Of a stretch of 32,211 nt of DNA, positions 781 to 24,282 are shown in pieces. The stretch comes from Desulfotomaculum sp. (GTDB lineage Bacteria; Bacillota; Desulfotomaculia; Desulfotomaculales; Desulfallaceae). The stretch's first letter is position 1; each line of letters begins with the position of its first letter. The stretch spans positions 1-32,211 of the forward strand of contig JAENYQ010000011.1 in assembly GCA_016841675.1 (NCBI GenBank), read 5' to 3'. The notes beneath the pieces are model-generated. The model had not been told where the DNA came from and searched no databases. It saw only the letters and a list, made by a program, of their open reading frames with translations. The translations under genes and the position numbers were made by a program.

Positions 781-2772
781 ATGAGGTACGCAGAGACAGG
801 GTATAATTTAGAAATTGATCTATCCCGAGGAAACATTGAGAGGGTAGAAACTGATCCCAGAGACACCGAACTTTATCTTGGGGGTCTCGGGACTAACGCC
901 AAGATAATTTGGGATAGGGTTCCTCCCGAAACAGAGCCCTTTTCTCCTGACAATCTTTTGATTTTCAGCGCCGGTCTTTTAGGTGGTACGCCGGCTACCG
1001 GTGCTAATCGAACCATGGTTACTTCCATATCGCCCCAGACTCGGCTATTTGCATATTCGATGATGGGGGGATTTTGGGCGCCGGAATTGAAGTTTGCCGG
1101 TTATGACAAAGTAATTCTTCGTGGCAAGTCCCCGAATCTGGTTTATATCTGGATCCACAATGACAAAGTAGAAATACGTGACGCCTCTCATTTGCAGGGT
1201 AAAGGCTCTGTTGAAGTGCAAGATTTAATTAAGCAGGAGTTGAATGAGCCGAACGCCCAGGTAGCCGCTATCGGTCTGGCTGGTGAAAATAAGGTTTATT
1301 TTGCTTCCATCGAGCAGGGTAGATCCAGTTGCAGCCGGCAAGGATTAGGTGCCGTTATGGGTAGTAAAAACGTAAAGGCGATCGCTGTTCGCGGCACAAG
1401 AGATATCAATATCGCCAAGCCGGATGAGTTTATTGAACTGATCAATGAAGTTTTGGAATATATAAAATGGCGAAATGAAAATCCAATACCAAATTATATG
1501 CCCATTTTAGCCGGGCTTGGTTCACCGCAAGAGATGAAACACGATGACGAAAAGTGGCACACCGAAAATTTCGTCTGGGGGAATGCTCGCTATCGCAGAA
1601 AAGGTTTTTGGACCAAGGAAATTGCCGAAGACTGGAAAGAAAGCATGGCAACTATGCAGAGGCGGCTAATCAGTTGCTTTAACTGTCCAATGAAATGCGG
1701 GGCAACAATTTCTCCCCCGGGTCAACCAACATACATGATGAAGTGCTTCACGAAACTTACGTATACAATGGCAGCTTTTGCAAACCTGGAATTTGGCCTG
1801 GGTATTGCTCAAAGTGCAACGGAGTATGGGGTAGACGGATATTCAGCCCCGCAGGTTATGGCTTTCGCCCTTGAGCTTTTAGAAGCCGGGATACTAACTG
1901 ATCATGATTTCCCTGGTATGCCGCCCGATAGCGAAGGTAGATTTCACTGGTTGCTGGACAGAATTGTGCGACGAGAAGGGATCGGGGATATCTTAGCCGA
2001 TGGCACGTATTGGGCAGCCGAAAAGATTGGTAATGGTGCGCATGAATATGCTCATAATAATATCAAGAAACATGAGCAGCTGCCTCTTAAGTTGAGCATG
2101 TTGGATCCTATTTATTACCTGATGTATTGTACCAACGAGAAGGTAACTATTACCCAAATTGAAGGTAATTTCCCTCAGGCACCATTTGCGACGCAGGAGG
2201 AGCGGGAAGCGTTTGTAAGCAATTGGATCCAGGCTCCCAATGAAAGAATTAAACAATATGTATTGGATTGGGAACCGCGAACGGCCCCCTATTTCCCCAC
2301 GCCTGATATGTGTTGTGAGATAGTTGACTGGATGGAGAGGATGCACTACATCGATGATGCTGTCGGTATGTGTGCCGGCTTGTCGGCTTTCCCGCTGAAG
2401 CCTCCTTATCACATCCACAATTACCCGAAGCTTATTTCGGCAGCTACCGGGATTGAAATGGATGAAGAAACACTGATACAAACCACCAAAAGGTACCGTA
2501 ATTTAGTCAGAGCCAACAATATAATCAGAGGCATGCGTCGAATAGACGAGGTTCCCCCGGAAGACCATTGGAAGAAGAGATTTCCCGAGCTTGAAAAGGA
2601 ACTCCTAGATAAGTATTACAAATACAAGGGTTGGAATAACGACGGTGTGCCGACGAAAGAGACTTTACACGATTTAGGTTTGGATTACGTCGCCGAAGAA
2701 TTCGAAAAGAGGGGGATCTACTCGGAAACACCTTCCTATGAAATCTCGGCAGAAAAAGAGAAGGAGGTGTAG
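781..2772 (+). CDS. bamB: BamB1: tungsten-dependent class II benzoyl-CoA reductase, catalytic subunit (AOR family)
   Basis: A 663-residue aldehyde:ferredoxin oxidoreductase family protein, the size of BamB (about 650). BamB holds a tungsten-bis-metallopterin and a [4Fe-4S] cluster and reduces benzoyl-CoA to a cyclic dienoyl-CoA. The cluster motif is visible: C299-x2-C302-x3-C306, with the distal Cys in DAVGMC at 531. Glu251, His260 and Cys322 coincide exactly with the catalytic pair and tungsten-ligand Cys that I recall from the Geobacter metallireducens BamB structure (numbers from memory). Start at ATG 781 with AGAGGAG upstream; the stop is two bases before bamC1, whose ribosome site lies inside this gene. 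Cytoplasmic, no signal peptide. An AOR acting on another acid or aldehyde is the alternative, but the whole bam gene order argues for a ring reductase. Confidence 0.85.
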   Translation: MRYAETGYNLEIDLSRGNIERVETDPRDTELYLGGLGTNAKIIWDRVPPETEPFSPDNLLIFSAGLLGGTPATGANRTMVTSISPQTRLFAYSMMGGFWAPELKFAGYDKVILRGKSPNLVYIWIHNDKVEIRDASHLQGKGSVEVQDLIKQELNEPNAQVAAIGLAGENKVYFASIEQGRSSCSRQGLGAVMGSKNVKAIAVRGTRDINIAKPDEFIELINEVLEYIKWRNENPIPNYMPILAGLGSPQEMKHDDEKWHTENFVWGNARYRRKGFWTKEIAEDWKESMATMQRRLISCFNCPMKCGATISPPGQPTYMMKCFTKLTYTMAAFANLEFGLGIAQSATEYGVDGYSAPQVMAFALELLEAGILTDHDFPGMPPDSEGRFHWLLDRIVRREGIGDILADGTYWAAEKIGNGAHEYAHNNIKKHEQLPLKLSMLDPIYYLMYCTNEKVTITQIEGNFPQAPFATQEEREAFVSNWIQAPNERIKQYVLDWEPRTAPYFPTPDMCCEIVDWMERMHYIDDAVGMCAGLSAFPLKPPYHIHNYPKLISAATGIEMDEETLIQTTKRYRNLVRANNIIRGMRRIDEVPPEDHWKKRFPELEKELLDKYYKYKGWNNDGVPTKETLHDLGLDYVAEEFEKRGIYSETPSYEISAEKEKEV

Positions 2773-2774
2773 AC

Positions 2775-3299
2775 GTGAGTAAGAAAATCATTAAAACAAT
2801 TAAAATTGATGCTGATAAATGCAATGGTTGTCGGGCATGTGAGGTAGTTTGCGCCGCTTTTCACGCTACACCAAAGTATAGTAGCGTAAATCCGGCGCGA
2901 TCTCGAATTAGACTAATTCGTGACCCAATAAAGGACATCTTTCTTCCCGTATATGCGGGCGAGCTTGCTACAGCCGAATGCATGGGCAGAGATAAATATA
3001 TTCTTGACGGTAAGGAATACGAAGAGTGTGCCTTCTGCAGGGCTTCCTGCCCTTCCAGGGACATTTTCAAAGAACCCGATTCAGGCCTCCCTCTTAAATG
3101 CGATATGTGTGAAGGCGAAAAAGAGCCCTTGTGCGTTAAGTGGTGCCTAGAAGAAGCCCTTATTTACGAAGAAAGAGAAGAAGACGTCGAAGAAGAAGTG
3201 AAGCCGGACGAGATAGAGCAGGGCTTGCAATCACTGCTAGACAAACATGGATTGGAGAAGTTGGTGGATACGCTGACCCGAATGTCGGAAAAGGACTAA
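2775..3299 (+). CDS. bamC: BamC1: ferredoxin-like electron-transfer subunit
   Basis: A 174-residue polyferredoxin that partners BamB and passes electrons to its cluster. Cysteine groups visible: CNGCRACEVVC near residue 16, CAFCRASC around 84, and CDMCEGEKEPLCVKWC around 113. The third group reads KWCLEEAL where BamC2 has QACPQGCL, so the usual Cys-Pro is missing in this copy. The C-terminus is acidic (EEREEDVEEE) and helical. GTG start at 2775, five bases after a strong AAGGAGGTG site inside bamB1, suggests tight co-translation. About 165 bp of palindromic repeat follows before bamD1. Confidence 0.8.
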   Translation: MSKKIIKTIKIDADKCNGCRACEVVCAAFHATPKYSSVNPARSRIRLIRDPIKDIFLPVYAGELATAECMGRDKYILDGKEYEECAFCRASCPSRDIFKEPDSGLPLKCDMCEGEKEPLCVKWCLEEALIYEEREEDVEEEVKPDEIEQGLQSLLDKHGLEKLVDTLTRMSEKD

Positions 3300-3441
3300 T
3301 GTCCCCAACGTATGACAGGGGACACACCTCAGCTTATGGGTCAAGGCTATGGGGTCGAGGAATGTCCCAGTTAAGGTCAGGGGACACACCCGCTGAAGCT
3401 TGGGTATTCCTTTGGGGAACGGGAATGTCCCCAATTAATGT
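3300..3441. repeat. GGGGACA/TGTCCCC palindromic repeats, bamC1-bamD1 junction
   Basis: Two consecutive units fill this gap: GGGGACACACC...GGAATGTCCC at 3317-3369 and GGGGACACACC...GGAATGTCCCC at 3378-3435, preceded by a lone TGTCCCC at the bamC1 stop. Outer arms GGGGACA and TGTCCCC are inverted repeats, so each unit can fold as a long hairpin. Related units occur at the equivalent junctions of both bam clusters. They resemble REP elements mobilised by REP-associated (IS200-like) transposases; no such transposase is in the window. Confidence 0.75.
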
Positions 3442-3463
3442 GAAAGAAGAGGATTAAAAAATC

Positions 3464-4618
3464 ATGATGGAGACTGAAGCCCCGATCAAAGAAGTTATCG
3501 AAGAAATCAAAGAGAGCGGTGGGGACGCAGTCAAATTCTGCTATCAATGCGGAAAATGCGATACTGTTTGTCCCTGGAATAAGGTTCGAACTTTCAGTAT
3601 GCGCAAACTAATCCGAGAGGCTACATTCGGTTTGACTGAAATAGAAAACGAAGAGATCTGGCGTTGTACTACCTGCGGCAAGTGCGCTCAGCGATGCCCC
3701 AGGGACGTACAGCAAATTCAAGACATGGTCGCCCTGCGCAGAATGGCCACGGGCTATGGCGTTTTTCCAACCGCTGTCAAACCTGTCCGCACCGCCAGCG
3801 CAGGACTGGCTGGAGAAGGTAATCCCTTCGGTGAAGAGCGCAGCAAAAGGGCGGATTGGGCCAAGGGCTTGTCTGTAAAAACCTTCGAAGAAGGAATGGA
3901 AATTTTATACTTCCCTGGCTGCTACTTAAGCTTTGACCCCAGATTAAAGAAGGTAGCAGCTGCCACAGTCAAGATCCTCAATAAGGCCGGGGTAGATTTC
4001 GGCATCCTGGGTGCCGAGGAAAACTGCTGTGGAGAAAGCATCCGCAAGACCGGCAATGAGGAATTATTTAAGCAGTTGGCCAGGGAAAACATCAAGACTT
4101 TTATCGATCACGGGGTCAAGAAAATACTTGTTTCTTCGCCTCATTGCTACCATACCTTCAAGAACGAGTATCCTGAATTCAATGTACACTTTGAGATAGT
4201 TCATATCTCCCAGTATTTATTCGAGCTAATTAATGAAGGAAAACTTCAGATCAGCAAAGAATATGAGCAGAAAATCACGTATCATGACCCATGTTACCTG
4301 GGGCGGCATAATGGCATTTATGACGAACCGCGCGGGGTCTTAAAGAAAATACCCGGTTTGGAACTAATTGAGCTGGCCGAGTCGCGGGAAGATAGTCTCT
4401 GCTGCGGAATGGGCGGCGGCAGGATTTGGATGGAAACTCCGGTGTCTGAAAGATTCTCCAACCTTAGATTAGATGAAGCTGTTGGACTTGGGGCCCAGGT
4501 GTTGGTTACTTCCTGCCCCTATTGCATTACCAACTTTGAGGATAGCAGGGTAGTCATGAATTATGATGAAGTGATCCAGATTAAGGACATTACAGAGATC
4601 CTCCAGGAAGTGATCTAA
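3464..4618 (+). CDS. bamD: BamD1: HdrD-like iron-sulfur protein
   Basis: A 384-residue protein with two N-terminal [4Fe-4S] motifs (CYQCGKCDTVCP from residue 26, CTTCGKCAQRCP from residue 68) and two CCG domains of heterodisulfide reductase type (ENCCGES in the first; DPCYLGRH and LCCGMGGG in the second). BamD is thought to relay electrons between the BamE flavoprotein and BamBC. Start at ATG 3464 after AGAGGA; a second ATG follows at once. From 3497 to the stop it is identical at DNA level to bamD2 at 15220-16341, while surrounding genes differ. Not a true methanogen HdrD: no membrane partner is present. Confidence 0.85.
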   Translation: MMETEAPIKEVIEEIKESGGDAVKFCYQCGKCDTVCPWNKVRTFSMRKLIREATFGLTEIENEEIWRCTTCGKCAQRCPRDVQQIQDMVALRRMATGYGVFPTAVKPVRTASAGLAGEGNPFGEERSKRADWAKGLSVKTFEEGMEILYFPGCYLSFDPRLKKVAAATVKILNKAGVDFGILGAEENCCGESIRKTGNEELFKQLARENIKTFIDHGVKKILVSSPHCYHTFKNEYPEFNVHFEIVHISQYLFELINEGKLQISKEYEQKITYHDPCYLGRHNGIYDEPRGVLKKIPGLELIELAESREDSLCCGMGGGRIWMETPVSERFSNLRLDEAVGLGAQVLVTSCPYCITNFEDSRVVMNYDEVIQIKDITEILQEVI

Positions 4619-4850: not shown

Positions 4851-4857
4851 ATACCGT

Positions 4858-4898
4858 ACGGGGAATGTCCCCAATGGAGAATCCCCAATTAATGTGAG
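4858..4898. repeat. GGAATGTCCCC repeat remnant before bamE1
   Basis: A partial unit of the junction repeat family: GGGGAATGTCCCC (itself an inverted repeat) at about 4860-4872, followed by ATCCCCAATTAATGTG. The trailing TCCCCAATTAATG also ends the units before bamD1 and bamF1, giving a recognisable fixed right end. Confidence 0.65.
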
Positions 4899-4908: not shown

Positions 4909-7900
4909 GTGGAAAAGGAACTATTGCTGGAAGAAAAAATCCAACAACTCTGTAAAAGTCGTGGAGATATTAATTTCGGCGACGTAATGGTTGTTGGTGG
5001 AGGAATCAGCGGTATTCAAGCTTCTCTTGATCTTGCCACGGCTGGTTTTAAGGTTTACCTGGTGGAAAAGGCACCCAGCATCGGGGGCCATATGGCCCAG
5101 CTGGACAAGACATTTCCTACCAATGACTGCTCCATGTGAATACTCTCGCCCAAGCTGGTCGAGGTCGGCCGGCATCAAAATATAGAGGTCCTGACCTATA
5201 CTGAAGTTGACAGTGTAGTCGGGGAAGCAGGAAACTTCAAGGTAACACTAAACAAAAAACCCAAATATATTGACGAAAGCAAATGTACGGGTTGTACCAC
5301 CTGTGTGGAATACTGCCCGGTCCAATACCCAGATCAATTTAATCAGGAAATATCGCAGAATAAAGCCGTTCATATCTACTTTCCGCAGGCCATACCGCTT
5401 GTCGCATATATTGATGAAAGCTGTCTTTACCTGAAAGAGAATAAATGTCGTATTTGCGAAGGTGTATGTAAGAATAACGCCATCAATTTAAATCAAACGG
5501 CGGAAATAAAAGAAGTAAATGTAGGGGCGATAATTCTGTCCACCGGCCTTGAGCCATTTGATCCCAAGGTGAGGGCAGAATATCGTTACGGAGAGTTTGA
5601 GAATGTAGTAACCAGTATGGACTATGAACGGCTGTTAAGCTCAACCGGACCATACCAAGGTGAGGTACTGCGTGCATCCGATAAGAAGCATCCCCAAAAA
5701 ATAGCTTGGATTCAATGCGTTGGCTCCAGACAAGTTATCCCCGGCGGCAACAGTTATTGTTCAGCAGTATGCTGCACCTATGCCCAGAAACATGTAATTT
5801 TGACCAAAGATCACTATGCAGATGCAGAGTGTACCATATTCCATAATGATATTCGTTCCTATGGGAAGGACTTTGAACGATTCTACGAAAGAACAGAGCA
5901 ACTTCCCGGGGTACGATTTATTAGAAGCTACACCTCAATAGTCAAAGAGAACCCGGTAACCAAAAATGTAAGCATCCGGTATTCTACACCCAATGATGGA
6001 GTAAAAGAAGAAGAATTCGATATGGTGGTATTATCCGTCGGATTGAATCCTCCTACTGATGCGAAAGGGTTAGCCAAAAAATACGGCATCGAACTCAATC
6101 TTCACGATTTTTGCAAACTCAATCCCGTCAACCCGATGGAGACCAACAGACCGGGGATCTTTGTAAGCGGCGCCTTCCAGGGTCCTATAGATATTCCCGA
6201 GTCGGTTTTTAGCGCCAGCGGAGCTAGCTCCCAATGTGGTGAACTCCTAGACTACCGGCGGGGAAATCTAGCCAAAGAAAGAATCTATCCGCTGGAAAGG
6301 GATGTCTCCCAAGAGGAACCAAGGATCGGAGTCTTTGTGTGTCATTGCGGAGCTAATATCGGAAGAATCGTGGATGTTCCTTCCGCAGTTGAGTATGCCT
6401 TAACCTTACCCAATGTTGTCTACGCTCAGGAACAGCTATTTTCCTGTGCTACTAATTCGGCCAAAGAAATAACAGACATGACCAAAGAAAAAGGGCTCAA
6501 CCGAGTGGTTGTCGCTGCCTGCTCCCCCAGGACCCTTGAACCGTTATTCCGGGACACCCTGCGGGAGGCGGGAATTAATCAATATTATTATGAAATGGCT
6601 AATATTAGGGAGCATAACTCCTGGGTTCACTCTAAAGAAAAGGAAGAGTCCACCCAGAAGGCCAAGGATATCATCCGGATGTCGGTAGCACGAGCTTGCC
6701 ATTTGCAATCATTACAGGAATTTGATCTGCCGGTAAATAAAACGGCGTTAGTGGTTGGTGGAGGTATAGCCGGCATGAATTGTGCTCTCTCCATAGCCAA
6801 CCAGGGACATGAGGTTTATCTGTTGGAAAAGGATACCGACTTGGGAGGAATCGCGCGAAAACTATATGATACCCTGGAAGGGCTGGATGTTCAGGCCTAT
6901 TTAAGTGAACTAACCAGAAAGATATATCAACATCCCTTGGTACACGTATATACTGATACTGCCATCACTGAGGCTACCGGTTATGTGGGTAATTTCGTAA
7001 CCAAAGTGAAATCCGCAAGAGGGGTCTCAGAAATTAAACATGGTGCGGTCGTCATTGCTATAGGTGCTGATGTATATACACCTACCGAATACCTTTATGG
7101 AGAAGATGACCGGGTCATGACCCACCTGGAACTGGAGGAGCAAATCGCCCAGAGAGACGAAAGGGTAATCAACTCCGAGAGTCTGGTGATGATCCAATGC
7201 GTTGGCTGCCGAAATGAGGACAGAAATTACTGCAGCCGGGTATGCTGCAGCGAGTCAATCAAGAACGCCCTGAAACTAAGAGAGCTAAACCCCGAGATGG
7301 ATATCTACATTCTCTTTAGGGATATGCGAACGTATGGGTTCCAAGAGGATTATTACCGGGAAGCGGCCAGTAAAGATGTCAAGTTCATCCGCTATGAGCC
7401 GCATGATCTACCTCAGGTGGAGGCTGGTGAGTCGGAAGAGGGTCGGCCCGTTCTAAAGCTTACCGTGACTGATCTTATTTTAGGTAAAAAGCTTGAACTG
7501 GATGCTGATATAATTTCTTTGGCCGCCGCTGTTATTCCCTCCGCAGTAACCAAAGAGGTAGCTGAATTATTCAAAGTAACTTTGAGCCCGGATGGATTCT
7601 TTAAAGAAGCCCATGTCAAATTAAGACCGGTTGAGTTTGGTACAGACGGTGTTTATCTTTGTGGCATGGCTCACTATCCCAAGCATATAACAGAAACAAT
7701 TAACCAGGCTTATGGAGCTGCTGGGCGGGTCTTAACGCTTCTCTCACACGATACCGTCATCGCCTCGGGCTCAGTTTGCGAAGTGGAAGAGAAAAAGTGT
7801 ATGGGGTGTGGAGCATGTATCGCGGTCTGTAAGTATGGTGCCATAGAGTTTCGTGAGACACGTCAGGGTAAAAAGGCTGTAGTTAATCCTGTGCTCTGTA

Positions 7901-8049
7901 AAGGAGATGGTCTCTGCAACGCCAAGTGTCCAACAGGGGCTATTTCGTTATTGCATTTTACCGACGAAGAGCTCTTAAGCCAAATTGATGCGGTGGTTCC
8001 AAAGCAAGAGATCATGCAGCAAATTGAAGCGGCGAATGTCCCTAATTAA
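4909..8049 (+). CDS. bamE: BamE1: HdrA-like flavo-iron-sulfur protein with selenocysteine (UGA at 5137-5139)
   Basis: A 1046-residue double-module HdrA homologue, read through one in-frame TGA at codon 77. Order: FAD-binding GGGISG near residue 30; CSM-Sec at 77; ferredoxin motifs from residues 126 and 180; a second FAD domain (GGGIAG near 616); [17 protein letters not shown]; and two C-terminal [4Fe-4S] motifs between residues 964 and 1015. BamE is the presumed bifurcating flavoprotein of the complex. The TGA aligns with TGC (Cys75) of BamE2, and the frame stays open with family sequence ([10 protein letters not shown]) after it. HdrA selenoproteins are known in methanococci. GTG start at 4909 after GAGGTG. 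The last codons (VPN, stop) derive from a junction repeat. Confidence 0.88.
5137..5173 (+). promoter_or_regulatory. SECIS-like element in bamE1
   Basis: After the TGA at 5137-5139, GCTGGTC (5154-5160) pairs with GGCCGGC (5167-5173), seven pairs including two G-U, around the loop GAGGTC. The AGGUC loop resembles the SelB-binding loop of the Escherichia coli fdhF SECIS, and the loop lies 21-27 bases after the UGA, the usual bacterial distance. The same stretch in the Cys-containing bamE2 shows no such stem. Structure drawn by eye. Confidence 0.75.
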
Positions 8050-8097: not shown

Positions 8098-8934
8098 ATG
8101 AGTACAGTTAAATTTAAACCAAGAGTATTAGGTTTTGTATGCCATTGGTGAGTATACGGCGCTGCTGACTTGGCTGGAGTTTCCAGACTACAATATACAA
8201 CTGAAATGAGGCTTATTCGCGTCATGTGTTCCGGTAGAGTCGACCTAGCATATGTACTTAGAGCCTTCTCAAATGGAATAGATGGGGTGTTTATTGGTGG
8301 TTGCCGTTTAAATGAATGTAATTATATTACGCATGGAAATTACCATGCCCTTAACATGGTGCTTCTATGTAGAAGAATAATGGAACATATCGGGCTGAAC
8401 CCCGAAAGGTTAAGGATCGAGTTTATGTCCGGCAGTGAAGGAAACCTTTTTGCCGAAGTAGTTAATGATGTTGTCAAGCAAGTGAAGAAGTTAGGACCAC
8501 TTGGTAAAAGCGAAGGTCTAGACCCAAATGAACTAAAGTCCAAACTTGCGGAAGTAACCAAGTTAGTCCCCTACATTAAAGTAGTAATGCAAGGAAAGTT
8601 GGCGTCGCGTCTTGAGAACCCGGAAGAATATGATGGACTTTTCACCAGTGACGAGATAGACAGTTTATTCAGGGACGTAGTCTCATACTATATTGACCCC
8701 CAGAAGTGCCAGGCCTGTATGATTTGCGCTAAAAGATGTCCTGTAGAGGCAATTATAAGTGCCAAGAACCAGATCCATGTCATTGACCAGGATAAATGCA
8801 TTAAATGCGGTACCTGCTTTGAAGCTTGCCCGACTCGATTTGGTGCGGTGACAAAGATTTCCGGCGAACCTGCTCCGCCTCCTATTCCTGAGGAAGAAAG
8901 AACGATAGTCAGAAAGAGTAAAGGAAAGAAATGA
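8098..8934 (+). CDS. bamF: BamF1: MvhD-like selenoprotein with C-terminal ferredoxin domain
   Basis: 278 residues when the in-frame TGA at 8149-8151 (codon 18) is read as selenocysteine. The start is ATG 8098, behind a strong AAAGGAGGTG site. The N-terminus reads GFVCHW-Sec-VYGAADLAG, matching the CNWCxY signature of MvhD/FrhD-type [2Fe-2S] proteins with the second Cys replaced; then IRVMCSGRVD and the GGCRLNECNY motif. C-terminal [4Fe-4S] motifs start at residues 204 (CQACMICAKRCP) and 234 (CIKCGTCFEACP). MvhD links HdrA to an electron-donating oxidoreductase. BamF has been described as a selenoprotein in class II systems. Taking the start after the TGA (8170) would discard a conserved motif with a perfect ribosome site upstream. 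Confidence 0.9.
8149..8186 (+). promoter_or_regulatory. SECIS-like element in bamF1
   Basis: TGA at 8149-8151 is followed by CTGGA (8174-8178), loop GTT, and TCCAG (8182-8186), with the loop about 28 bases after the UGA. The identical hairpin occurs at the same distance in bamF2. It overlaps codons for AGVSR, which are conserved in Cys homologues, so part of the conservation may be protein-driven. Confidence 0.6.
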
Positions 8935-12324: not shown

Positions 12325-12564
12325 ATGAAACGGCAACTGTTGGATGAAATTGTTGGGTTGATTTATGACAAACAATTTTTAAGGGGGAACATAAGGATGG
12401 GGAAAATCAAGGAATGGGCTGAAAAGAAAAAAACCGGCGGTTAAGTGACAAGCTGTTTTGATCCCTATGTGCCGGATGAAATACTGTGTGCAGAGCAGCT
12501 GAATGACATGGCTGCCAAGAACCCGAAAGAGGCTAAAAATATACTTAGAGGTGTTGAAAAATGA
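12325..12564 (+). pseudogene. Small leader ORF upstream of bamB2, in two in-frame pieces
   Basis: Frame 1 reads from ATG 12325 (or ATG 12397, MGKIKEWAEKKKTGG) to TAA 12442-12444. It continues from GTG 12445 for 39 residues (with YVPDEILCAEQL and AKNILRGVEK) to a TGA at 12562-12564 that overlaps the bamB2 start as ATGA. That overlap is typical of translational coupling. Homologous but more damaged versions precede bamB1 and the molybdopterin oxidoreductase. This copy is the best preserved and might still act as one or two short coupled ORFs, or as a leader peptide. Unknown family. Confidence 0.45.
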
Positions 12565-14531
12565 GGTACGCAGAAGCAGGGTATAATTTAGAAATTGATT
12601 TATCTCGAGGAAATATTGAGAGGGTTGAAACCGATCCTAAATTAACAGAACTTTTTCTAGGAGGCCAGGGCGTTAACGCCAAGATAATATGGGATCGGGT
12701 TGGTCCTGAAGTTAAACCTTTTGATGAAGGTAATTTACTAATATTTGGCGCCGGCCTTTTGCATGGCACACCTGTTATCGGGTGTAACCGGACCAGTGTG
12801 AATACCATTAATCCCATGACAGGCATATTCGGACATTCCACGATGGGCGGATTTTTCGGGCCGGAAATAAAACATGCCGGTTACGACAGAATAATCATTA
12901 GCGGCAAAGCCCCCAAGCTGGTTTATTTATGGATCAAAAATGACAAGGTGGAAATACGTGATGCTTCCCACCTCAAGGGGAAAACCGTTCGAGAAACTAC
13001 ACGACTCATTAAAGAGGAGTTAAATGAACCGTTCGCCCAGGTGGCCTGTATCGGCCCGGCTGGTGAAAACAAGGTCTTTACGGCTAGTCTCGAACATAAT
13101 TGGAACAGCGCGGCTCGAGGGCCAGGCCCGATTATGGGTGACAAAATGATCAAGGCCATTGCTGTTCGCGGAACAAAGGACATCAATATCGCCCATCCGC
13201 AAGAACTCTTTGAGTTATGCCTCAAAATGAAGAAGGAAATGTATGAGAGCGATGGTTGCGGGGACTGGATGGCGGTCGATGAGGATGACAGTTTCCACCA
13301 CAATAACTTTTCTTGGGGCAATTCGCGGACACGGATAAAAAATTATTGGAGTGAAGAACTCCAAAAAAGATGGACTAATTGGAAATATGACCATATGGAC
13401 AGACAAATGGGTTGCTATAACTGTCCTAAAGGCTGCATCAATGTGATTTCCTGGCCGGGCCATCCAAGATTTGGCTATAAGTGTTACGGAAAAGACACCT
13501 ATCATATGGCAGCCTTTAAAGAACTGGACTATAGTTATGAATTACTTGGTTATTGTCAGGATTATGGTCTGGATTCATATTCAACGCCGCAGACATTAGC
13601 CCTGGGCATAGAACTATACGAGGCTGGTATTTTAACTGATAAGGACATGCCTAATTTCCCGACTGACTCCGGGGACAGAATTAAGTACCTGGTGGAAAAG
13701 GTTGTTCACCGGGAAGGGATTGGAGATATATTGGCCAATGGCTCTTGGCATGCGGCCCGCCAGATTGGCAACGGCGCAGAAGCATTTGAACATAATACCG
13801 TGAAAAAAATGGAACAGTTACCCATCAAGCTTGGCAAACTGAATCCTGCCTATTACCTCATGATAGCCACTGGTGAGAAGATGGCCATCACCCAGATCGA
13901 AGGGTCCTTCCCCCAAGATCCTATTCGTGATTTAGACGAGAGGCAAAAGTTTGTTGATAGATGGGATGCAGTCCCCAGTGAAATATTTAAAGATATCTTT
14001 ATGAGATGGGAAAAGCGTAATGAGATGTCTGTTGAGGATACCTGCTTAGTTACTGACTGGAATGAGGCGATGCACTACGTTGATGACTCCACCGGACTCT
14101 GTGGTTTTGTGTCATCATTTAGGGGCCAGTTTGGTGGGAAAACGGCATTTTCCTTCAATAATGTGCCACAAATAATCTCGCTGGCGACCGGCATGGATAT
14201 GGATAAAGACAAACTTTGGGAAATTTGTCGAAGAAACCGAACTTTGATCAGAGCCATTAATAATAGGCTAGGTATTCGAAGAGTGGATGACGATCCACCC
14301 AAGGATCACTGGGCAGTGAGGGACCCTGAGCTTGAAGCAAAGATGCTTGATGGCTATTATGACTTAAGGGGATTTACCAAGGATGGCATTCCTACCAAAG
14401 AGGAACTGTATAAACAGGGCTTGGACTATGTGGCCGATGAATTGATTCAGAGAGGGATTTTGGATCCTAATGAAGGTACTCCCTCCCAAGAGAAAGCAAA
14501 ATTAGAAGATCAAAAGTCAGGGGGGTGCTAA
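12561..14531 (+). CDS. bamB: BamB2: divergent class II benzoyl-CoA reductase-like catalytic subunit (AOR family)
   Basis: 656 residues, starting MRYAEAGYNLEIDLSRGN, nearly the same as BamB1, but diverging further in. The cluster motif C285-x2-C288-x3-C292 and the distal Cys514 (DSTGLC) are present. His246 and Cys308 match His260 and Cys322 of BamB1. The segment before His246 is 14 residues shorter, and no Glu aligns with Glu251 of BamB1 (the stretch reads VDEDDSFHH). This may mean a different ring or dienoyl-CoA substrate, or a nearby acid taking over. Start ATG 12561 with AGAGGTG upstream and ATGA overlap with the leader ORF. Followed two bases later by bamC2. Confidence 0.82.
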   Translation: MRYAEAGYNLEIDLSRGNIERVETDPKLTELFLGGQGVNAKIIWDRVGPEVKPFDEGNLLIFGAGLLHGTPVIGCNRTSVNTINPMTGIFGHSTMGGFFGPEIKHAGYDRIIISGKAPKLVYLWIKNDKVEIRDASHLKGKTVRETTRLIKEELNEPFAQVACIGPAGENKVFTASLEHNWNSAARGPGPIMGDKMIKAIAVRGTKDINIAHPQELFELCLKMKKEMYESDGCGDWMAVDEDDSFHHNNFSWGNSRTRIKNYWSEELQKRWTNWKYDHMDRQMGCYNCPKGCINVISWPGHPRFGYKCYGKDTYHMAAFKELDYSYELLGYCQDYGLDSYSTPQTLALGIELYEAGILTDKDMPNFPTDSGDRIKYLVEKVVHREGIGDILANGSWHAARQIGNGAEAFEHNTVKKMEQLPIKLGKLNPAYYLMIATGEKMAITQIEGSFPQDPIRDLDERQKFVDRWDAVPSEIFKDIFMRWEKRNEMSVEDTCLVTDWNEAMHYVDDSTGLCGFVSSFRGQFGGKTAFSFNNVPQIISLATGMDMDKDKLWEICRRNRTLIRAINNRLGIRRVDDDPPKDHWAVRDPELEAKMLDGYYDLRGFTKDGIPTKEELYKQGLDYVADELIQRGILDPNEGTPSQEKAKLEDQKSGGC

Positions 14532-14533
14532 CC

Positions 14534-15067
14534 GTGGCTGAAACAGTAAAGAAAATAGTAAAAACAATTAAAGTTGATCTTGATAAATGTAATGGTTGCC
14601 GTGGATGTGAGATGGCCTGCTCTGCATATCATGCAACGCCAAAATATAGCAGTATGAATCCGGCCAGGTCTCGGATTCGCGTGATTATGGATCCATTTAA
14701 TGATGAATTTGTTCCGATTCGCGCCACTGATTATACTAAAGCCGGGTGTGATGGCAGACGTGTTTATACAATTAGAGGAAAGGAATACAGCGAGTGTAGT
14801 TTCTGTGGCACTATCTGCCCAACCAGGGATTTATTTTTTGACCCCGATTCCGGTCTACCTTTAAAATGCGATTTGTGCGAAGACGAAAAAGTGCCCCTTT
14901 GTGTCCAGGCGTGTCCACAAGGTTGTCTGACTTATGTGGAGCTGGAAGAGGAAGTCGAAGAAGAAGTGAAGACGAGCGAGATGGAACTCGGATTAAAATC
15001 ATTGGTAGATAAATATGGAGTGCGGAAGTTGCAGGATTCCTTTGCCCGCATTGCAAAGAAGGGTTAG
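14534..15067 (+). CDS. bamC: BamC2: ferredoxin-like electron-transfer subunit
   Basis: 177 residues, homologous to BamC1 along its length. Cysteine groups: CNGCRGCEMAC, CSFCGTIC and CDLCEDEKVPLCVQACPQGC, the last with the normal Cys-Pro that BamC1 lacks. Presumed partner of BamB2. I chose GTG 14534 rather than the in-frame GTG at 14525: it sits six bases after AGGGGGGTG and two bases after the bamB2 stop, the same geometry as bamC1. The acidic C-terminal tail (ELEEEVEEEV) is conserved between copies. Confidence 0.8.
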   Translation: MAETVKKIVKTIKVDLDKCNGCRGCEMACSAYHATPKYSSMNPARSRIRVIMDPFNDEFVPIRATDYTKAGCDGRRVYTIRGKEYSECSFCGTICPTRDLFFDPDSGLPLKCDLCEDEKVPLCVQACPQGCLTYVELEEEVEEEVKTSEMELGLKSLVDKYGVRKLQDSFARIAKKG

Positions 15068-15172
15068 CAAGGTCAGGGGACACACCCGCTGAAACTTGGG
15101 TATTCCTTTGGGGGACGGGAATGTCCCCAACTAATATACTTTGTGGACAGGAATGTCCCCAATATATGTGAA
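15066..15172. repeat. GGGGACA/TGTCCCC palindromic repeats, bamC2-bamD2 junction
   Basis: GGGGACACACC at 15076 pairs with GGAATGTCCCC ending near 15128; a second right-end TGTCCCC follows at about 15153-15159. The unit is almost the same sequence as that before bamD1, including the inner TTGGGTATTCCTTTGGGG, so it was probably copied or converted along with bamD. Confidence 0.75.
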
Positions 15173-15189
15173 AGTAGAGGATTAAAAAT

Positions 15190-16341
15190 ATGGAGACTGA
15201 AGCCCCGATCAGAGAAGTAATCGAAGAAATCAAAGAGAGCGGTGGGGACGCAGTCAAATTCTGCTATCAATGCGGAAAATGCGATACTGTTTGTCCCTGG
15301 AATAAGGTTCGAACTTTCAGTATGCGCAAACTAATCCGAGAGGCTACATTCGGTTTGACTGAAATAGAAAACGAAGAGATCTGGCGTTGTACTACCTGCG
15401 GCAAGTGCGCTCAGCGATGCCCCAGGGACGTACAGCAAATTCAAGACATGGTCGCCCTGCGCAGAATGGCCACGGGCTATGGCGTTTTTCCAACCGCTGT
15501 CAAACCTGTCCGCACCGCCAGCGCAGGACTGGCTGGAGAAGGTAATCCCTTCGGTGAAGAGCGCAGCAAAAGGGCGGATTGGGCCAAGGGCTTGTCTGTA
15601 AAAACCTTCGAAGAAGGAATGGAAATTTTATACTTCCCTGGCTGCTACTTAAGCTTTGACCCCAGATTAAAGAAGGTAGCAGCTGCCACAGTCAAGATCC
15701 TCAATAAGGCCGGGGTAGATTTCGGCATCCTGGGTGCCGAGGAAAACTGCTGTGGAGAAAGCATCCGCAAGACCGGCAATGAGGAATTATTTAAGCAGTT
15801 GGCCAGGGAAAACATCAAGACTTTTATCGATCACGGGGTCAAGAAAATACTTGTTTCTTCGCCTCATTGCTACCATACCTTCAAGAACGAGTATCCTGAA
15901 TTCAATGTACACTTTGAGATAGTTCATATCTCCCAGTATTTATTCGAGCTAATTAATGAAGGAAAACTTCAGATCAGCAAAGAATATGAGCAGAAAATCA
16001 CGTATCATGACCCATGTTACCTGGGGCGGCATAATGGCATTTATGACGAACCGCGCGGGGTCTTAAAGAAAATACCCGGTTTGGAACTAATTGAGCTGGC
16101 CGAGTCGCGGGAAGATAGTCTCTGCTGCGGAATGGGCGGCGGCAGGATTTGGATGGAAACTCCGGTGTCTGAAAGATTCTCCAACCTTAGATTAGATGAA
16201 GCTGTTGGACTTGGGGCCCAGGTGTTGGTTACTTCCTGCCCCTATTGCATTACCAACTTTGAGGATAGCAGGGTAGTCATGAATTATGATGAAGTGATCC
16301 AGATTAAGGACATTACAGAGATCCTCCAGGAAGTGATCTAA
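15190..16341 (+). CDS. bamD: BamD2: HdrD-like iron-sulfur protein, near-identical to BamD1
   Basis: 383 residues. It differs from BamD1 only by the extra N-terminal Met of BamD1 and one Lys/Arg exchange at residue 8. The two [4Fe-4S] motifs and two CCG domains are as in BamD1. DNA identity begins at 15220 (equivalent to 3497) and runs without a difference I could find to the stop; downstream the sequences are unrelated. Start ATG 15190 after AGAGGA. Identity in synonymous positions, between diverged neighbours, points to recent gene conversion or selection for one interchangeable subunit. Confidence 0.85.
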   Translation: METEAPIREVIEEIKESGGDAVKFCYQCGKCDTVCPWNKVRTFSMRKLIREATFGLTEIENEEIWRCTTCGKCAQRCPRDVQQIQDMVALRRMATGYGVFPTAVKPVRTASAGLAGEGNPFGEERSKRADWAKGLSVKTFEEGMEILYFPGCYLSFDPRLKKVAAATVKILNKAGVDFGILGAEENCCGESIRKTGNEELFKQLARENIKTFIDHGVKKILVSSPHCYHTFKNEYPEFNVHFEIVHISQYLFELINEGKLQISKEYEQKITYHDPCYLGRHNGIYDEPRGVLKKIPGLELIELAESREDSLCCGMGGGRIWMETPVSERFSNLRLDEAVGLGAQVLVTSCPYCITNFEDSRVVMNYDEVIQIKDITEILQEVI

Positions 16342-16411: not shown

Positions 16412-17209
16412 ATGCAGGCAGCGATTGGCGTATCGGATATGAAAGGTGTGGCAGCGGAAATAGTCTGCGATCGCTTTTCGGACGAGGGATGGGTCAGGAC
16501 CTCAGTTCACGTACCCAGCGAGATGGAGCTGATGCTCTACGTAAATAAGCAGGAACTGGTCACCATTCTGTGCACTCCAACCAAGCTGAATTTTCTGGTC
16601 CTCGGATTCCTTTACACAGAGGGAATTATCTCAGACATCAACGACGTGAATATCCTGCGGGTGTGTGAGGAGGAATCGGTGGCCGATGTGAGGCTCAAAA
16701 ATTCCGAGTATCAATTGCCAACGCAACGGAAAATCACATCCGGGTGCGGTGGTGGTGCAGCTTTTAAAACGCAGGGACAGCAGGTTGATTCGGATCTTGT
16801 TATTAAACCAACGGAAGTGCTGTCACTGATGAAGCAGCTTCAAGAGCAGATGGAGCTATACCGGCTTAGTGGTGGCGTACACACCTCAGCCCTGGCCGAT
16901 ACTAAGAAATTGCTATTAGTGGCTGAGGATATCGGACGACATAACACCTTGGACAAAATCCAGGGTGAATGTTTAGCGAGGGAACTATCGACCAGAGATA
17001 AATTGCTATTAACCACCGGTCGCGTTTCATCGGAGATGTTGCTCAAGGCGGCAAAGATGCAGGCTCCGGTTGTTGTTTCGCTGCACTCGCCGACAGGGGG
17101 CGCCGTTTCGCTTGCTCGTGATTTGGGTATTACCTTGGTTGGCCATGCGCGAGGCCGCCGACTGCAGGTGTATTCCCATCCTAAGCGAATTGGCTGCTCA
17201 ACAAATTAA
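16412..17209 (+). CDS. fdhD: FdhD: formate dehydrogenase accessory sulfurtransferase
   Basis: 265 residues, normal for FdhD, which passes sulfur from a cysteine desulfurase to Mo/W-bisMGD enzymes such as formate dehydrogenase. The reactive-loop region reads TSGCGGG with Cys112; VAEDIGRHNTLDK and LLLTTGRVSSEM are family signatures. It lies between bamD2 and bamE2, and its remains lie at the same site in cluster 1. AOR-family enzymes carry two pterins without nucleotides and are not known FdhD clients, so the likely client is the bisMGD enzyme at 9787-11838. Start ATG 16412; the upstream site is weak (AAGGGGAC, about 14 bases away). Confidence 0.9.
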   Translation: MQAAIGVSDMKGVAAEIVCDRFSDEGWVRTSVHVPSEMELMLYVNKQELVTILCTPTKLNFLVLGFLYTEGIISDINDVNILRVCEEESVADVRLKNSEYQLPTQRKITSGCGGGAAFKTQGQQVDSDLVIKPTEVLSLMKQLQEQMELYRLSGGVHTSALADTKKLLLVAEDIGRHNTLDKIQGECLARELSTRDKLLLTTGRVSSEMLLKAAKMQAPVVVSLHSPTGGAVSLARDLGITLVGHARGRRLQVYSHPKRIGCSTN

Positions 17210-17273: not shown

Positions 17274-20200
17274 ATGGAAAATGAACTAGAAAGAATTGGA
17301 GGACCGCTTGTTAAAAGTCTTGCCGGCAGTAATTTTGGAGATGTTATGATCGTCGGTGGTGGGATCAGCGGTATTCAAGCCGCACTAGACCTTGCCACGG
17401 CAGGTTTTAAAGTTTACCTGGTAGACAAATCGCCGACCATCGGCGGCCACATGTCCCAGCTGGACAAGACATTTCCCACTAATGACTGCTCCATGTGCAT
17501 TGAATCGCCTAAGTTTGTGGAATGCAGCAGGCATCCTAATATAGAGATTATGACCTATACTGAAGTTGACCGTATCGAAGGAGAAACGGGCGACTTCAAT
17601 GTAACACTGATTAAAAAGCCCAGATATGTAATCGAGGATAAATGCACGGGCTGTACTGCCTGTGTAGAATACTGCCCAGTCACCTACCCGGATCAATTTA
17701 ATCAAGAGATATCGGGCAATAAAGCCATCCATATATACTTCTCGCAAGCAATTCCCCTAGTTACTTATATTGATGAAAGCTGCCGTTATCTTAAAGATAA
17801 GACATGTACTGTTTGCCAAGCAGTCTGTAAAAACGAGGCCATAGATTTTACTCAAACAGCCCAAAAGGTAGAAATAAAAGTAGGGGCGATAGTTCTATCT
17901 CCCGGCTTTGAGCCATTTGATCCTAAGTTAGGTAATAACTATGGCTACGGCAAGTTTGAAAACGTGGTCACCAGTATGGACTATGAAAGGCTATTATGTT
18001 CCACAGGACCATACGAAGGTGAAATACTGCGCGCTTCAGACAAGAAACATCCCAAAAAAATAGCCTGGATTCAGTGCGTCGGTTCCAGACAGGTTATTCC
18101 CGGCGGCAACAGCTATTGCTCAGCCGTATGCTGCACCTATGCCCAGAAACATGTAATTTTGACCAAAGATCATGACCCGGATGCCGAGTGCACCATATTC
18201 CATAACGATATTCGTTCCTATGGCAAGGACTTTGAGCGATTTTACGCCAGAACAGAGAAACTGCCCGGGGTGCGATTTATCAGAAGCTATGTATCAATAG
18301 GCAAAGAGAACCCCGAAACCAAGAATGTAAGCATCCGGTATGCTACCACCGACGATGGGGTAAAAGAGGAAGAATTCGATATGGTGGTATTATCCGTTGG
18401 CCTAAACCCGCCTAAAGATTTTAAAGGCCTGGCCGATAAGTTTGGCGTCGAGCTCAATGAACACGGATTCTGTAAAACCAATCCGGTTAATCCCATGCAA
18501 ACCACGCGCCCGGGAATCTTCATCAGCGGCGCCTTCCAGGGTCCGATGGATATCCCCGAATCGGTTGTGACCGCCAGCGGGGCCGGTTCCCAATGTGGTG
18601 AACTCCTAGACTACCGGCGCGGCGATCTGGCCCAAGAAAGAATCTATCCGCTGGAAAGGGATGTTTCCCAAGAGAAGCCGCGGGTAGGCGTCTATGTGTG
18701 TCATTGTGGCGCTAATATCGGCAGAATCGTGAATGTTCCTTCCACAGTTGAATATGCCCTAACCTTACCCAATGTTGTACACGCTGAAGACAACCTTTTT
18801 ATCTGTTCTACTGATGCGGCCAAGCATATATCAGACTCGATCCGTGAAAAAAACATTAACCGCGTGGTTGTCGCCGCCTGTACGCCAAGGACACATGAGC
18901 CGCTATTTAGGGACACGCTTCGTGAAGGAGGCATTAATCCCTATTTCTTTGAGTTTTGCAATATTAGGGAACATTGCTCCTGGGTCCACTCCAAAGAACA
19001 GGAAGCGGCCACCCAAAAGGCCAAGGATTTGGTCCGGATGTCGGTAGCCCGAACGGCTCTTTTAGAGCCCCTGCAGGAATATAATTTGCCCGTTAACAGG
19101 GCGGTATTAGTGCTCGGCGGAGGCGTGGCCGGCATAACCAGTGCTCTTTCCATCGCCAACCAGGGACATGATGTTCATCTGGTGGAAAAGGATACTGACC
19201 TGGGTGGCATGGCCAGAAGACTTCATTACACCCTGGAAGGGCTGGATGTTCAGGCCTATTTGGGTGGTCTCATAAGCAAGGCCTATCAGCACCCCTTAAT
19301 CCATGTCTATACTGATGCTGCCGTCACGGAAGCTGACGGTTATGTGGGTAATTTCGTGACCAAGGTGCAGTCACAAGGCCGGGTCACCGAGATAAAACAT
19401 GGCGCGGCCATTATCGCTACCGGTGCCCAGGTTTATGAACCCACCGAATACCTCTATGGTCAAGATGAGCGGGTCATGACCCACCTGGAGTTAGAGGAAA
19501 AAATCGCTCAAGGCGACGAAAACCTGATCAACTCCGAGAGCCTGGTGATGATCCAATGCGTAGGCTGCCGCAATGAAGACCGCAATTACTGCAGCCGGAT
19601 CTGCTGCAGCGAATCGATCAAGAACGCCTTGAAACTAAAAGAAGTAAACCCCGAGATGGATATCTACATCCTCTTTAGGGATATTAGAACGTACGGATTC
19701 AAAGAGGATTATTACCGTGAAGCGTCCAGTAAAGATATAAGGTTCATCCGCTATGAGCCGCAAGACTTGCCTCAGGTGGAAGCTGGTGAGTCGGATGAGG
19801 GTCGGCCAGTTTTGAAGGTTACCGTGACCGATTATGTTTTAGGTAAGCAGCTTGAAATAGATGCTGATGCACTCGCTTTAGCTGCCGCGGTTATTCCCTC
19901 TGCAGCAAGTCAGGAAATAGCCGGATTATTCAAGGTAACTTTGAGCCCGGATGGTTTCTTCCAGGAAGCCCATGCCAAATTAAGGCCGGTTGACTTTGCC
20001 GCGGAAGGCGTTTACTTGTGTGGGATAGCTCATTATCCCAAACTCATATCGGAAACCATTAGCCAGGCTTATGGAGCTGCCGGCCGGGTGTTAACGCTTC
20101 TATCACATGATACGGTCACAGCCTCCGGCTCGGTTTGCGAGGTAAATGAAAATGACTGTATTTCATGTGGGGCTTGTATCTCAGTCTGTTCGTATGGCGC

Positions 20201-20378
20201 CATCGAGTTCCGTGAGACTCCACAGGGCAGAAAGGCCACAGTTAACCCTGTGCTCTGTAAAGGAGATGGTCTCTGTAACGCCAAGTGTCCAACCGGGGCT
20301 ATTGCACTAAAACACTATACGCATGAACAGCTTTATCGCCAAATTGACGCATCGGCTCCAGAGGAAATTATCCAATAA
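17274..20378 (+). CDS. bamE: BamE2: HdrA-like flavo-iron-sulfur protein, cysteine form
   Basis: 1034 residues, colinear with BamE1: FAD-binding GGGISG near residue 27, CSMC with Cys75 where BamE1 has Sec, ferredoxin motifs CTGCTACVEYCP and CTVCQAVC, a second FAD domain (GGGVAG), [17 protein letters not shown], and two C-terminal [4Fe-4S] motifs. Presumed bifurcating flavoprotein for set 2. The codon is TGC, and no SECIS-like stem follows. ATG 17274 has GAGGA about ten bases upstream. Repeats follow the stop. A small gap (17210-17273) separates it from fdhD. Confidence 0.87.
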   Translation: MENELERIGGPLVKSLAGSNFGDVMIVGGGISGIQAALDLATAGFKVYLVDKSPTIGGHMSQLDKTFPTNDCSMCIESPKFVECSRHPNIEIMTYTEVDRIEGETGDFNVTLIKKPRYVIEDKCTGCTACVEYCPVTYPDQFNQEISGNKAIHIYFSQAIPLVTYIDESCRYLKDKTCTVCQAVCKNEAIDFTQTAQKVEIKVGAIVLSPGFEPFDPKLGNNYGYGKFENVVTSMDYERLLCSTGPYEGEILRASDKKHPKKIAWIQCVGSRQVIPGGNSYCSAVCCTYAQKHVILTKDHDPDAECTIFHNDIRSYGKDFERFYARTEKLPGVRFIRSYVSIGKENPETKNVSIRYATTDDGVKEEEFDMVVLSVGLNPPKDFKGLADKFGVELNEHGFCKTNPVNPMQTTRPGIFISGAFQGPMDIPESVVTASGAGSQCGELLDYRRGDLAQERIYPLERDVSQEKPRVGVYVCHCGANIGRIVNVPSTVEYALTLPNVVHAEDNLFICSTDAAKHISDSIREKNINRVVVAACTPRTHEPLFRDTLREGGINPYFFEFCNIREHCSWVHSKEQEAATQKAKDLVRMSVARTALLEPLQEYNLPVNRAVLVLGGGVAGITSALSIANQGHDVHLVEKDTDLGGMARRLHYTLEGLDVQAYLGGLISKAYQHPLIHVYTDAAVTEADGYVGNFVTKVQSQGRVTEIKHGAAIIATGAQVYEPTEYLYGQDERVMTHLELEEKIAQGDENLINSESLVMIQCVGCRNEDRNYCSRICCSESIKNALKLKEVNPEMDIYILFRDIRTYGFKEDYYREASSKDIRFIRYEPQDLPQVEAGESDEGRPVLKVTVTDYVLGKQLEIDADALALAAAVIPSAASQEIAGLFKVTLSPDGFFQEAHAKLRPVDFAAEGVYLCGIAHYPKLISETISQAYGAAGRVLTLLSHDTVTASGSVCEVNENDCISCGACISVCSYGAIEFRETPQGRKATVNPVLCKGDGLCNAKCPTGAIALKHYTHEQLYRQIDASAPEEIIQ

Positions 20379-20554: not shown

Positions 20555-21322
20555 GTGGGTACAGGAACTGATTTTAAGCCAAGGATCTTAGGTTTCCTAT
20601 GTAATTGGTGAGCATACGGTGCTGCTGATTTGTCTGGAGTTTCCAGGCAACAATATGGAACTTACACTAAGCTTATCCGGGTGATGTGCTCGGGCAGAGT
20701 CGATATGACATTTTTACTCCGGGCTTTATCAAATGGCACAGACGGTGTGTTTATCGGCGGTTGTCACCTTGGTGATTGCCATTACAATACGCATGGAAAT
20801 TACCAAGCACTTAACATGGTGCTTTTATGTAAAAGGATATTGAAACACATCGGACTGAACCCTGAAAGGTTAAGGATTGATTTTATGTCTGCCGGTGAAG
20901 GAATCCGGTTCACCGAATTTATGAATGATTTTGGCAGTACGGTGAAGAAGTTAGGACCTCTTGGCCAGGGCGAGGACATAGACCAAACTGAATTAAAGTT
21001 AAAACTTAAAGCGGTTACCCAGCTAATCCCTTACATTAGGCTGGTGCTTAATGAGCGGCTGAGAGTACACTTTGATACCAAAGAAGAATATATAGCATTC
21101 TACTCCAGTGATGAGTTTGATCACTTATTTGATGAATTAATTGCAGATAAATTAGCCATAAGCCAAATTATGTTACTGCTTGGGGAAAAACCACTTTCAA
21201 CTGATGAAATATCTAAGCTTTTAGACCTAACCCCGTCTGAAGTATCAAGACACATTAATAGTTCAGCCAGACAAGGATTAGTCAAGTACGAGGCCAGCCA
21301 AAAGCACTTTGCTCGCGTATAA
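20555..21322 (+). CDS. bamF: BamF2: MvhD-like selenoprotein with C-terminal winged-helix domain
   Basis: 255 residues reading TGA 20609-20611 (codon 19) as selenocysteine in GFLCNW-Sec-AYGAADLSG. The rest of the MvhD core follows (IRVMCSGRVD, GGCHLGDCHY). The start is GTG 20555 with AGAGGTGG upstream. Unlike BamF1 there is no C-terminal ferredoxin. Instead residues from about 205 read LLLGEKPLSTDEISKLLDL, then SEVSRHINSSARQGLV, a MarR/ArsR-like helix-turn-helix. Such C-termini occur in some MvhD relatives and may be a binding domain rather than a regulator. It should link BamE2 to BamGHI. Confidence 0.88.
20609..20648 (+). promoter_or_regulatory. SECIS-like element in bamF2
   Basis: After TGA 20609-20611, GTCTGGA (20632-20638) pairs with TCCAGGC (20642-20648), seven pairs including one G-U, with loop GTT. 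Two pairs longer than in bamF1 and at the same distance from the UGA. Drawn by eye. Confidence 0.65.
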
Positions 21323-21457
21323 AGGAAAGGGGACACACCTCAGCTTTGGGGTCAAGGCTTTGGGGTCGAGGAATGTCCCCAACGTATGAAAGGGGACACA
21401 CCTGGAGCTTTGGGGTTAAGGCTTTGGGGTCGAGGAATGTCCCCAACGTATGCAAGA
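21323..21457. repeat. GGGGACA/TGTCCCC palindromic repeats, bamF2-bamG junction
   Basis: Two near-identical tandem units (about 21329-21383 and 21390-21445). Each is GGGGACACACCT...TTTGGGGT...GGCTTTGGGGTCGAGG and then AATGTCCCC, followed by AACGTATG. These are the cleanest copies in the window and define a unit of about 55 bp with spacing of about 61 bp. Confidence 0.8.
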
Positions 21458-21505
21458 GCAGACAGCAGTGGATTAGGGGAAAGAAGGAGGTCAAGACAAA
21501 AGGCT

Positions 21506-21958
21506 ATGAATAGCGATAAAATTGATCAAATTATCAACACACATCAGGGCCAAGCCAGTTCACTGATTCAAGTATTGATGGAAATTCAGGAAGTGAATCA
21601 TTGGCTTCCCAGGGAAGTATTAGAGAAGGTCAGTGAGCAATTGGAGGTGCCTTTAAGTCGGGTACTGCGAATAGCTACCATTTATAAAACATTTAGTTTA
21701 ACTCCTAAAGGACGTCATGAAGTGCACATTTGTACCGGTACCGCCTGTAAAGTGCGTGGTGCGCAGCGTGTTCTCGACAAGGTGCAAAACCTGACTGGCA
21801 TTAAACCTGGCGAAACGGACATGGATGACAAGTTTAGCCTGGAGACCGTTAACTGCCAAGGCTGCTGTACTTTAGGTCCGATGATGCAAATCGATGGAAA
21901 GACTCACAGTAGAATGTCGCCTGCCGAGATAGCAGACGCATTAAAAAAATATGAGTGA
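21506..21958 (+). CDS. bamG: BamG: NuoE-like [2Fe-2S] protein
   Basis: 150 residues from ATG 21506, the usual size for the 24-kDa NuoE family. The [2Fe-2S] ligands are CTGTAC (C-x4-C) and CQGCC (C-x3-C). With BamH it forms the NAD(P)H-reactive or electron-accepting module of the complex. An in-frame ATG at 21386 would add 40 residues translated from the palindromic repeat, so I reject it. The AAGGAGG site (21484-21490) is rather far (15 bases) from the chosen start, and no nearer in-frame start exists. bamH follows after 9 bases. Confidence 0.82.
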   Translation: MNSDKIDQIINTHQGQASSLIQVLMEIQEVNHWLPREVLEKVSEQLEVPLSRVLRIATIYKTFSLTPKGRHEVHICTGTACKVRGAQRVLDKVQNLTGIKPGETDMDDKFSLETVNCQGCCTLGPMMQIDGKTHSRMSPAEIADALKKYE

Positions 21959-21967
21959 GGGAGTATT

Positions 21968-23647: not shown

Positions 23648-23685
23648 AAGAAGGGGGAACTTTAACCTAAAGGGAGTAAAGAAAA

Positions 23686-24282
23686 ATGAGCAAAATCATT
23701 TTAATAATTGATGGCAAAGAAGTAGAAGCAAATGAAGGTATGACCATTTTGCAGGCAGCACAAAGTGTTGGGATAGTTATTCCGACCCTTTGTCACCACG
23801 AGCTGTTAGAGCCTTATGGTGGTTGCCGCCTTTGTACCGTAGAAGCAGAAGTGCGCGGCCGGACAAAACTCGTTGCGGCTTGTCTTTACCCGGTAGAAAA
23901 GGATTTGATCGTTAGAACCAAGTCCCAGCAGGTAGATAAAATTCGCAAAATGATTTTGGAGCTATTGTTGGCTCATGCCCCAGATTCCAGGGAGCTGCAG
24001 GATTTGGCCAAGGAGTATGGTGCAGACAAAAACCGTTTTGGCAAAGAACCTTCGTTTTGCATTCATTGTGGGCTATGCGTAAGATACTGTGCTGAGGTTA
24101 CTAAGAAGAACGCTATTTGTTTTATTGACAAAGGAACAACGCGGGAGATAAGTTTTATTCCTGAGATAGCTGCCAAGGAATGCTGGAATTGCAAAGAATG
24201 TTTTTCGCTTTGCCCGACTGAGGCACTACAGGCGGCTTTCGTTTTAGCTCAAGCACTCGCGTTTCCCGCACCGACGGAATAA
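23686..24282 (+). CDS. bamI: BamI: NuoG/HoxU-like ferredoxin subunit
   Basis: 198 residues. The N-terminal [2Fe-2S] domain uses Cys in TLCHH, GGCRLC and AACLYP; then two C-terminal [4Fe-4S] motifs, CIHCGLCVRYC and CWNCKECFSLCP. It lacks the His/Cys cluster segment and the molybdopterin-like remainder of NuoG, so it is a short electron-wire subunit. Start ATG 23686 after AAAGGGAG. Last gene of the bam cluster. A strong inverted repeat follows at 24352-24393. Confidence 0.8.
   Translation: MSKIILIIDGKEVEANEGMTILQAAQSVGIVIPTLCHHELLEPYGGCRLCTVEAEVRGRTKLVAACLYPVEKDLIVRTKSQQVDKIRKMILELLLAHAPDSRELQDLAKEYGADKNRFGKEPSFCIHCGLCVRYCAEVTKKNAICFIDKGTTREISFIPEIAAKECWNCKECFSLCPTEALQAAFVLAQALAFPAPTE

Follow-up and report, generated by a model that had tools for sequence, protein, structure and literature searches.

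The window, that is, the whole stretch of 32,211 nucleotides analysed here, opens contig C40 (59,222 bases) of a Desulfotomaculum sp. draft genome (162 contigs, 3.84 Mb). It carries two head-to-tail gene clusters, bamB1-C1-D1-(fdhD1)-E1-F1 and bamB2-C2-D2-fdhD2-E2-F2, followed by a single NuoE/NuoF/HoxU-like gene set, and all of these genes lie on the + strand. The first cluster consists of bamB1 for the tungsten catalytic subunit (781..2772), bamC1 (2775..3299), bamD1 (3464..4618, 384 aa), a remnant of fdhD1 (4646 to about 4831-4897) that lost its 5′ part right after the bamD1 stop codon and in which tblastn aligned residues 168-231 of 265 only, bamE1 for a double HdrA-like protein (4909..8049), and bamF1 for an MvhD-like protein (8098..8934). 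The second cluster consists of bamB2 (12561..14531), bamC2 (14525..15067), bamD2 (15190..16341, 383 aa), an intact fdhD2 (16412..17209), bamE2 (17274..20378), and bamF2 (20555..21322). The NuoE/NuoF/HoxU-like genes (21386..24282), likely bamG, bamH and bamI, are the sole such set in the window and are possibly common to both clusters. In-frame TGA codons were found in bamE1, bamF1 and bamF2; that of bamE1 probably encodes selenocysteine and is matched by Cys in bamE2, which places Sec and Cys forms of BamE side by side.

Profile matches of BamB and BamC were to AOR-family and FeS models, below equivalog cut-offs, and the best NCBIfam match of BamD was TfrB, also below the cut-off. BamD is an HdrD/TfrB-like FeS subunit; its sequence resembles HdrC plus HdrB and contains two 4Fe-4S motifs and two CCG-type cysteine domains. 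The BamB products are of the AOR/WOR family and are accompanied by a BamC polyferredoxin, an HdrA-like BamE, an MvhD-like BamF, and NuoEFG-like BamGHI, the components of a class II benzoyl-CoA reductase. On this gene content, and on the high identity of BamB and BamC to those of Desulfotomaculum gibsoniae, both clusters are predicted to be class II benzoyl-CoA reductase clusters for aromatic-ring breakdown in a sulfate-reducer-type bacterium.

Several other features of the window were recorded. Most clusters of this group have fdhD in the position after bamD and before bamE (the window, L125 of D. gibsoniae, and L128), and its loss is reciprocal, copy 1 having decayed in the window and the opposite copy (L125) in D. 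gibsoniae. A gene for a formate-dehydrogenase-like molybdopterin oxidoreductase (9778-11838) lies between the two bam clusters, and two segments upstream of it (8987-9027 and 9513-9594) resemble 11908-11949 and 12021-12101. A short tandem array of TTGGATTGTCATTCCGAACGC units (24539-24623) is located upstream of a CoA-transferase gene, and the window ends in a tandem array of the telomere-like hexamer GGGTTT (32156-32211), with a further match at 32222-32261 of the contig.

Exact comparison of 3497..4618 with 15220..16341 (both +) revealed 0 mismatches in 1122 positions, and the match extends 0 further bases on either side. The tract runs from codon 12 of bamD1 to the stop codon. The original prediction that identity includes synonymous sites was thereby borne out, with 147 of the 148 four-fold sites of bamD1 and bamD2 identical; they include an unbroken run of 144 identical sites, and 10,000 shuffles gave runs of 29 at most. 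Upstream of the tract, the first codons differ by two substitutions and an altered start (MMETEAPIKEVIEE in bamD1, METEAPIREVIEE in bamD2). They belong to near-identical leaders (3373..3496 and 15069..15219, +), which comprise a GGGGACA...TGTCCCC element, the ribosome-binding region and the first 11 codons, and of which the second has 32 extra bases. The segments 3373-3434 and 15069-15130 are 96.8% identical, in line with the near-sameness noted earlier, and 3410-4618 is 98.9% identical overall to 15139-16341. The sharp end of identity at the stop codon also held, with the refinement that the clusters cease to align there because copy 1 lacks the 5′ part of fdhD directly at that point. The remaining pairs have diverged, as had been claimed: identities between clusters 1 and 2 were 53% for BamB, 60% for BamC, 77% for BamE, and 52% for BamF, and four-fold-site identity outside bamD was 39-59%. 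Searched as DNA, the entire 3.84-Mb draft contained two bamD copies only, and the next relative was 44% identical in protein comparison.

The genome of D. gibsoniae Groll is finished (4,855,529 bp), and six bamB copies with matching bamC have been reported for it (PMC4148979). Five bamD genes were found in this genome. Two of them, separated by 9.4 kb, belong to a tandem whose two clusters each have a counterpart in the window. Copy 1 of the window corresponds to L124 (90% amino acid identity for BamB, 83% for BamC, 87% for BamE, and 86% for BamF) and copy 2 to L125 (92%, 88%, 85%, and 79%, respectively), whereas the crossed pairs showed 52-78%. This cluster-by-cluster orthology of B, C, E and F indicates that the clusters parted before the split of the two species. 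In contrast, bamD grouped by genome, with nucleotide identities of 100% within the window and 97.7% within the D. gibsoniae tandem, and 85-87% between genomes. The same held for four-fold sites, of which 135/141 were identical within the D. gibsoniae tandem and 75-78 of 125-128 (about 60%) between genomes. Trees joining bamD1 or bamD2 with its positional ortholog were rejected (log-likelihood 400.6 and 384.0 worse; p-AU 2e-49 and 9e-5). Within the D. gibsoniae tandem, mismatches per 60 bases numbered 13-18 upstream, 0-6 within bamD and 31-47 downstream, the edges of the tract lying at the start and stop codons. As bamD groups by genome while B, C, E and F group by cluster, conversion evidently took place independently in each lineage; two such events since the species parted are the most economical account, strongly supported by these comparisons. 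Nor can purifying or codon-level constraint be the cause, given a between-genome value of about 60%: the idea that selection acting directly on DNA or RNA holds the synonymous sites fixed, for which no support was found, was rejected on this value, and its probability is virtually nil.

The pattern was found beyond these two genomes. A third tandem, in Desulfotomaculaceae bacterium STE_194 from another family, shows identity over 1947 bases, which take in bamD and most of fdhD; bamB/C and E/F on either side differ clearly. Among 62 sequences, bamD grouping by genome was almost perfect: the bamD tree required 9 label changes for 9 genomes (minimum 8), a number reached in 0 of 200 shuffles, whereas the bamB tree required 15 (minimum 7) with no clustering by genome, and bamB was diverged in every pair compared. 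The bamD tree shows apparently independent homogenisation in several other Desulfotomaculia genomes as well. Recent conversion is not seen in every multi-copy genome: BM5 and Sporotomaculum share two bamD lineages as ortholog pairs. In a set of 25 genomes, most of them Desulfobacterota, a single bamD was the rule; a second copy was present in G117 and G118 and has stayed diverged in both. Homogenisation is also not confined to bamD: E and F have been homogenised between some clusters of D. gibsoniae, and two contigs of Sporotomaculum have an identical 3.9-kb stretch in common that takes in part of bamD. As C, fdhD, E or F is homogenised in some genomes, bamD is the favourite and not the sole target; conversion reaches several genes, and bamD is its most consistent target.

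Taken together, these observations strongly support gene conversion between bamD1 and bamD2, which we consider very probable on the evidence of orthology, trees and the topology test. Within-genome paralogs are closer than orthologs (AU test and trees), the likeness extends to the four-fold sites, the duplication predates the species split as judged by synteny (cluster-specific B, C, E and F orthologs in D. gibsoniae), and a bounded tract has diverged flanks in the window, D. gibsoniae and STE_194, all of which are marks of concerted evolution. The two genes are then old paralogs in anciently separated tandem clusters, and one bamD copy recently overwrote the other (1 to 2 or 2 to 1) across 1122 bp or more, as far as the stop codon. 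The agent was presumably non-reciprocal homologous (RecA-type) recombination between the bamD genes. The divergence of the flanking genes may be too great for them to pair, which would restrict the exchange to bamD and place the edges at gene boundaries. Nearly the same sequence outcome would result if one cluster had lost bamD and regained a fresh copy of its neighbour's by insertion, with no conversion involved; the deletion in copy 1 directly after the bamD stop and the existence of clusters without bamD fit such a duplication. Both copies, though, occupy the same site between bamC and fdhD in this and in other genomes, so insertion would need to hit the exact site every time, and we give this course of events a very small probability.

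Assembly is a further concern, as two similar but different bamD copies could have been collapsed and one consensus written twice. The genome is a draft of 162 contigs, short-read assemblers merge exact repeats of 1.1 kb, and bamD breaks contigs in related draft genomes. In one of these (G012), the ends of two bamBC contigs carry an identical stretch of 55 bases at the bamD start, and in another (G015), two contigs end in a common 55-base stretch that lies within bamC; these ends look like k-mer overlaps at a collapsed repeat. On the other hand, the tract lies inside one 59-kb contig, the window contains no N, and the flanks are distinct on both sides, with resolved differences a few bases upstream. 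The same concerted pattern, with non-identical copies, is present in the finished D. gibsoniae genome, where collapse therefore cannot be its cause. An artefact is thus unlikely, with a small probability only, and could only have raised a truly high identity to exactly 100%; a few real differences could be hidden in the draft. The tendency of bamD copies to break or merge in draft assemblies has a practical side, since bam clusters in draft and metagenome genomes are therefore often cut there.

Recent gene conversion, as originally predicted, thus stands, but the accompanying proposal that the junction repeats upstream of bamD guided the recombination does not. No GGGGACA repeat was found beside bamD in the D. 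gibsoniae tandem, which has the same sharp tract edges; therefore, the repeats are not needed. GGGGACA...TGTCCCC heptamers number 20 in the window versus about 3.3 expected, the intergenic element occurs at 3300-3434, 15069-15165, 16341-16400, 20395-20510 and 21325-21464, and its longer form has 8 close copies on six contigs of the genome. With the element dispersed in this genome and absent at bamD in D. gibsoniae, a role as driver was rejected. It looks like a REP-type dispersed intergenic repeat, and the near-identical leader suggests that the element in the bamC-bamD spacers was copied together with bamD.

Why bamD should be the gene kept alike is a separate question. Selection for one interchangeable BamD, as first proposed, is plausible. 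In a more general form, BamD (in some genomes a BamDEF set) may be a universal adaptor that docks onto several BamBC modules, with conversion keeping the adaptor identical; sameness would be favoured, though this step is less certain than the preceding ones, since a common electron-relay subunit must fit several different BamBC modules. We hold this reading tentatively, at somewhat less than an even chance. BamBC pairs lacking a bamD of their own bear on it. The third cluster of the window genome (bamB3-bamC3-fdhD3; L153, 6195-11910 of contig C17) has no bamD and damaged E and F, its bamE being internally deleted and running into the C-terminal end of bamF. In D. gibsoniae, the sixth bamBC is an orphan with no D, E or F beside it, and the order in Desulfosporosinus I2 is BC-BC-D-E-F, with two bamBC and one bamD. 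If such pairs work, they must borrow a BamD. An excess of bamB over bamD in other drafts was not counted in support if the additional bamB was the last gene before a contig broke off. Alternatively, conversion may be neutral, conservation of the BamD protein keeping the DNA above the threshold for recombination so that sameness arises with no advantage. Few genes of the cluster are as conserved as bamD (75-90% amino acid identity across the families compared), the tract edges coincide with the end of homology, and ordinary recombination suffices; we regard neutral conversion as a serious possibility, if not quite an evenly balanced one. Against it, bamE is nearly as conserved (77% for the window copies) and longer, yet it has not been homogenised in the window, and the orphan bamBC pairs point to sharing of BamD. 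The unhomogenised bamE mildly favours the adaptor over neutral conversion. If BamD is indeed an adaptor, cells would exchange one aromatic-ring reductase for another on a shared electron-bifurcating core, and a BamBC pair that lacks its own bamD would be functional and not a relic.

bamD is a new example of a known process, concerted evolution. A catalogue of recurrent concerted evolution in prokaryotes lists 26 genes, most of them for subunits of complexes, including tuf, amoCAB, haoAB, psbA/psbD, eftA/eftB and mtrA (PMC6053082); bamD and other benzoyl-CoA reductase genes are absent from its published tables, and no report of bamD conversion or homogenisation was found in the literature. Like those paralogs, bamD copies within a genome are closer than orthologs, synonymous sites included, and the catalogued genes are mostly subunits of stable complexes, as with bamD. 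Unlike the catalogued cases, mainly one subunit is homogenised here while its operon partners diverge, and strict synteny for bamD is shown in fewer species than the rule of five applied in that catalogue. The class II gene set is multi-copy in D. gibsoniae (PMC4148979) and Desulfococcus multivorans (PMC5109826), and the window resembles these sets in having B, C, D, an HdrA-like E, an MvhD-like F and NuoEFG-like genes; those papers reported multiple bamB copies, and the homogenisation of bamD comes from the present analysis. A subunit of an oxygen-sensitive aromatic-ring reductase thus joins the short list of bacterial genes evolving in concert, with a hint as to how anaerobes may widen their aromatic diet, the catalytic BamBC pair changing while the electron relay stays. 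A similar case is mtrA-1/mtrA-2 of methanogens (PMC4632066), in which one subunit of an anaerobic complex is likewise kept alike by long-lasting conversion between neighbouring copies; the mtrA copies, however, share an operon and are told apart by a fused domain, whereas each bamD copy is an entire gene in a complete cluster of its own.
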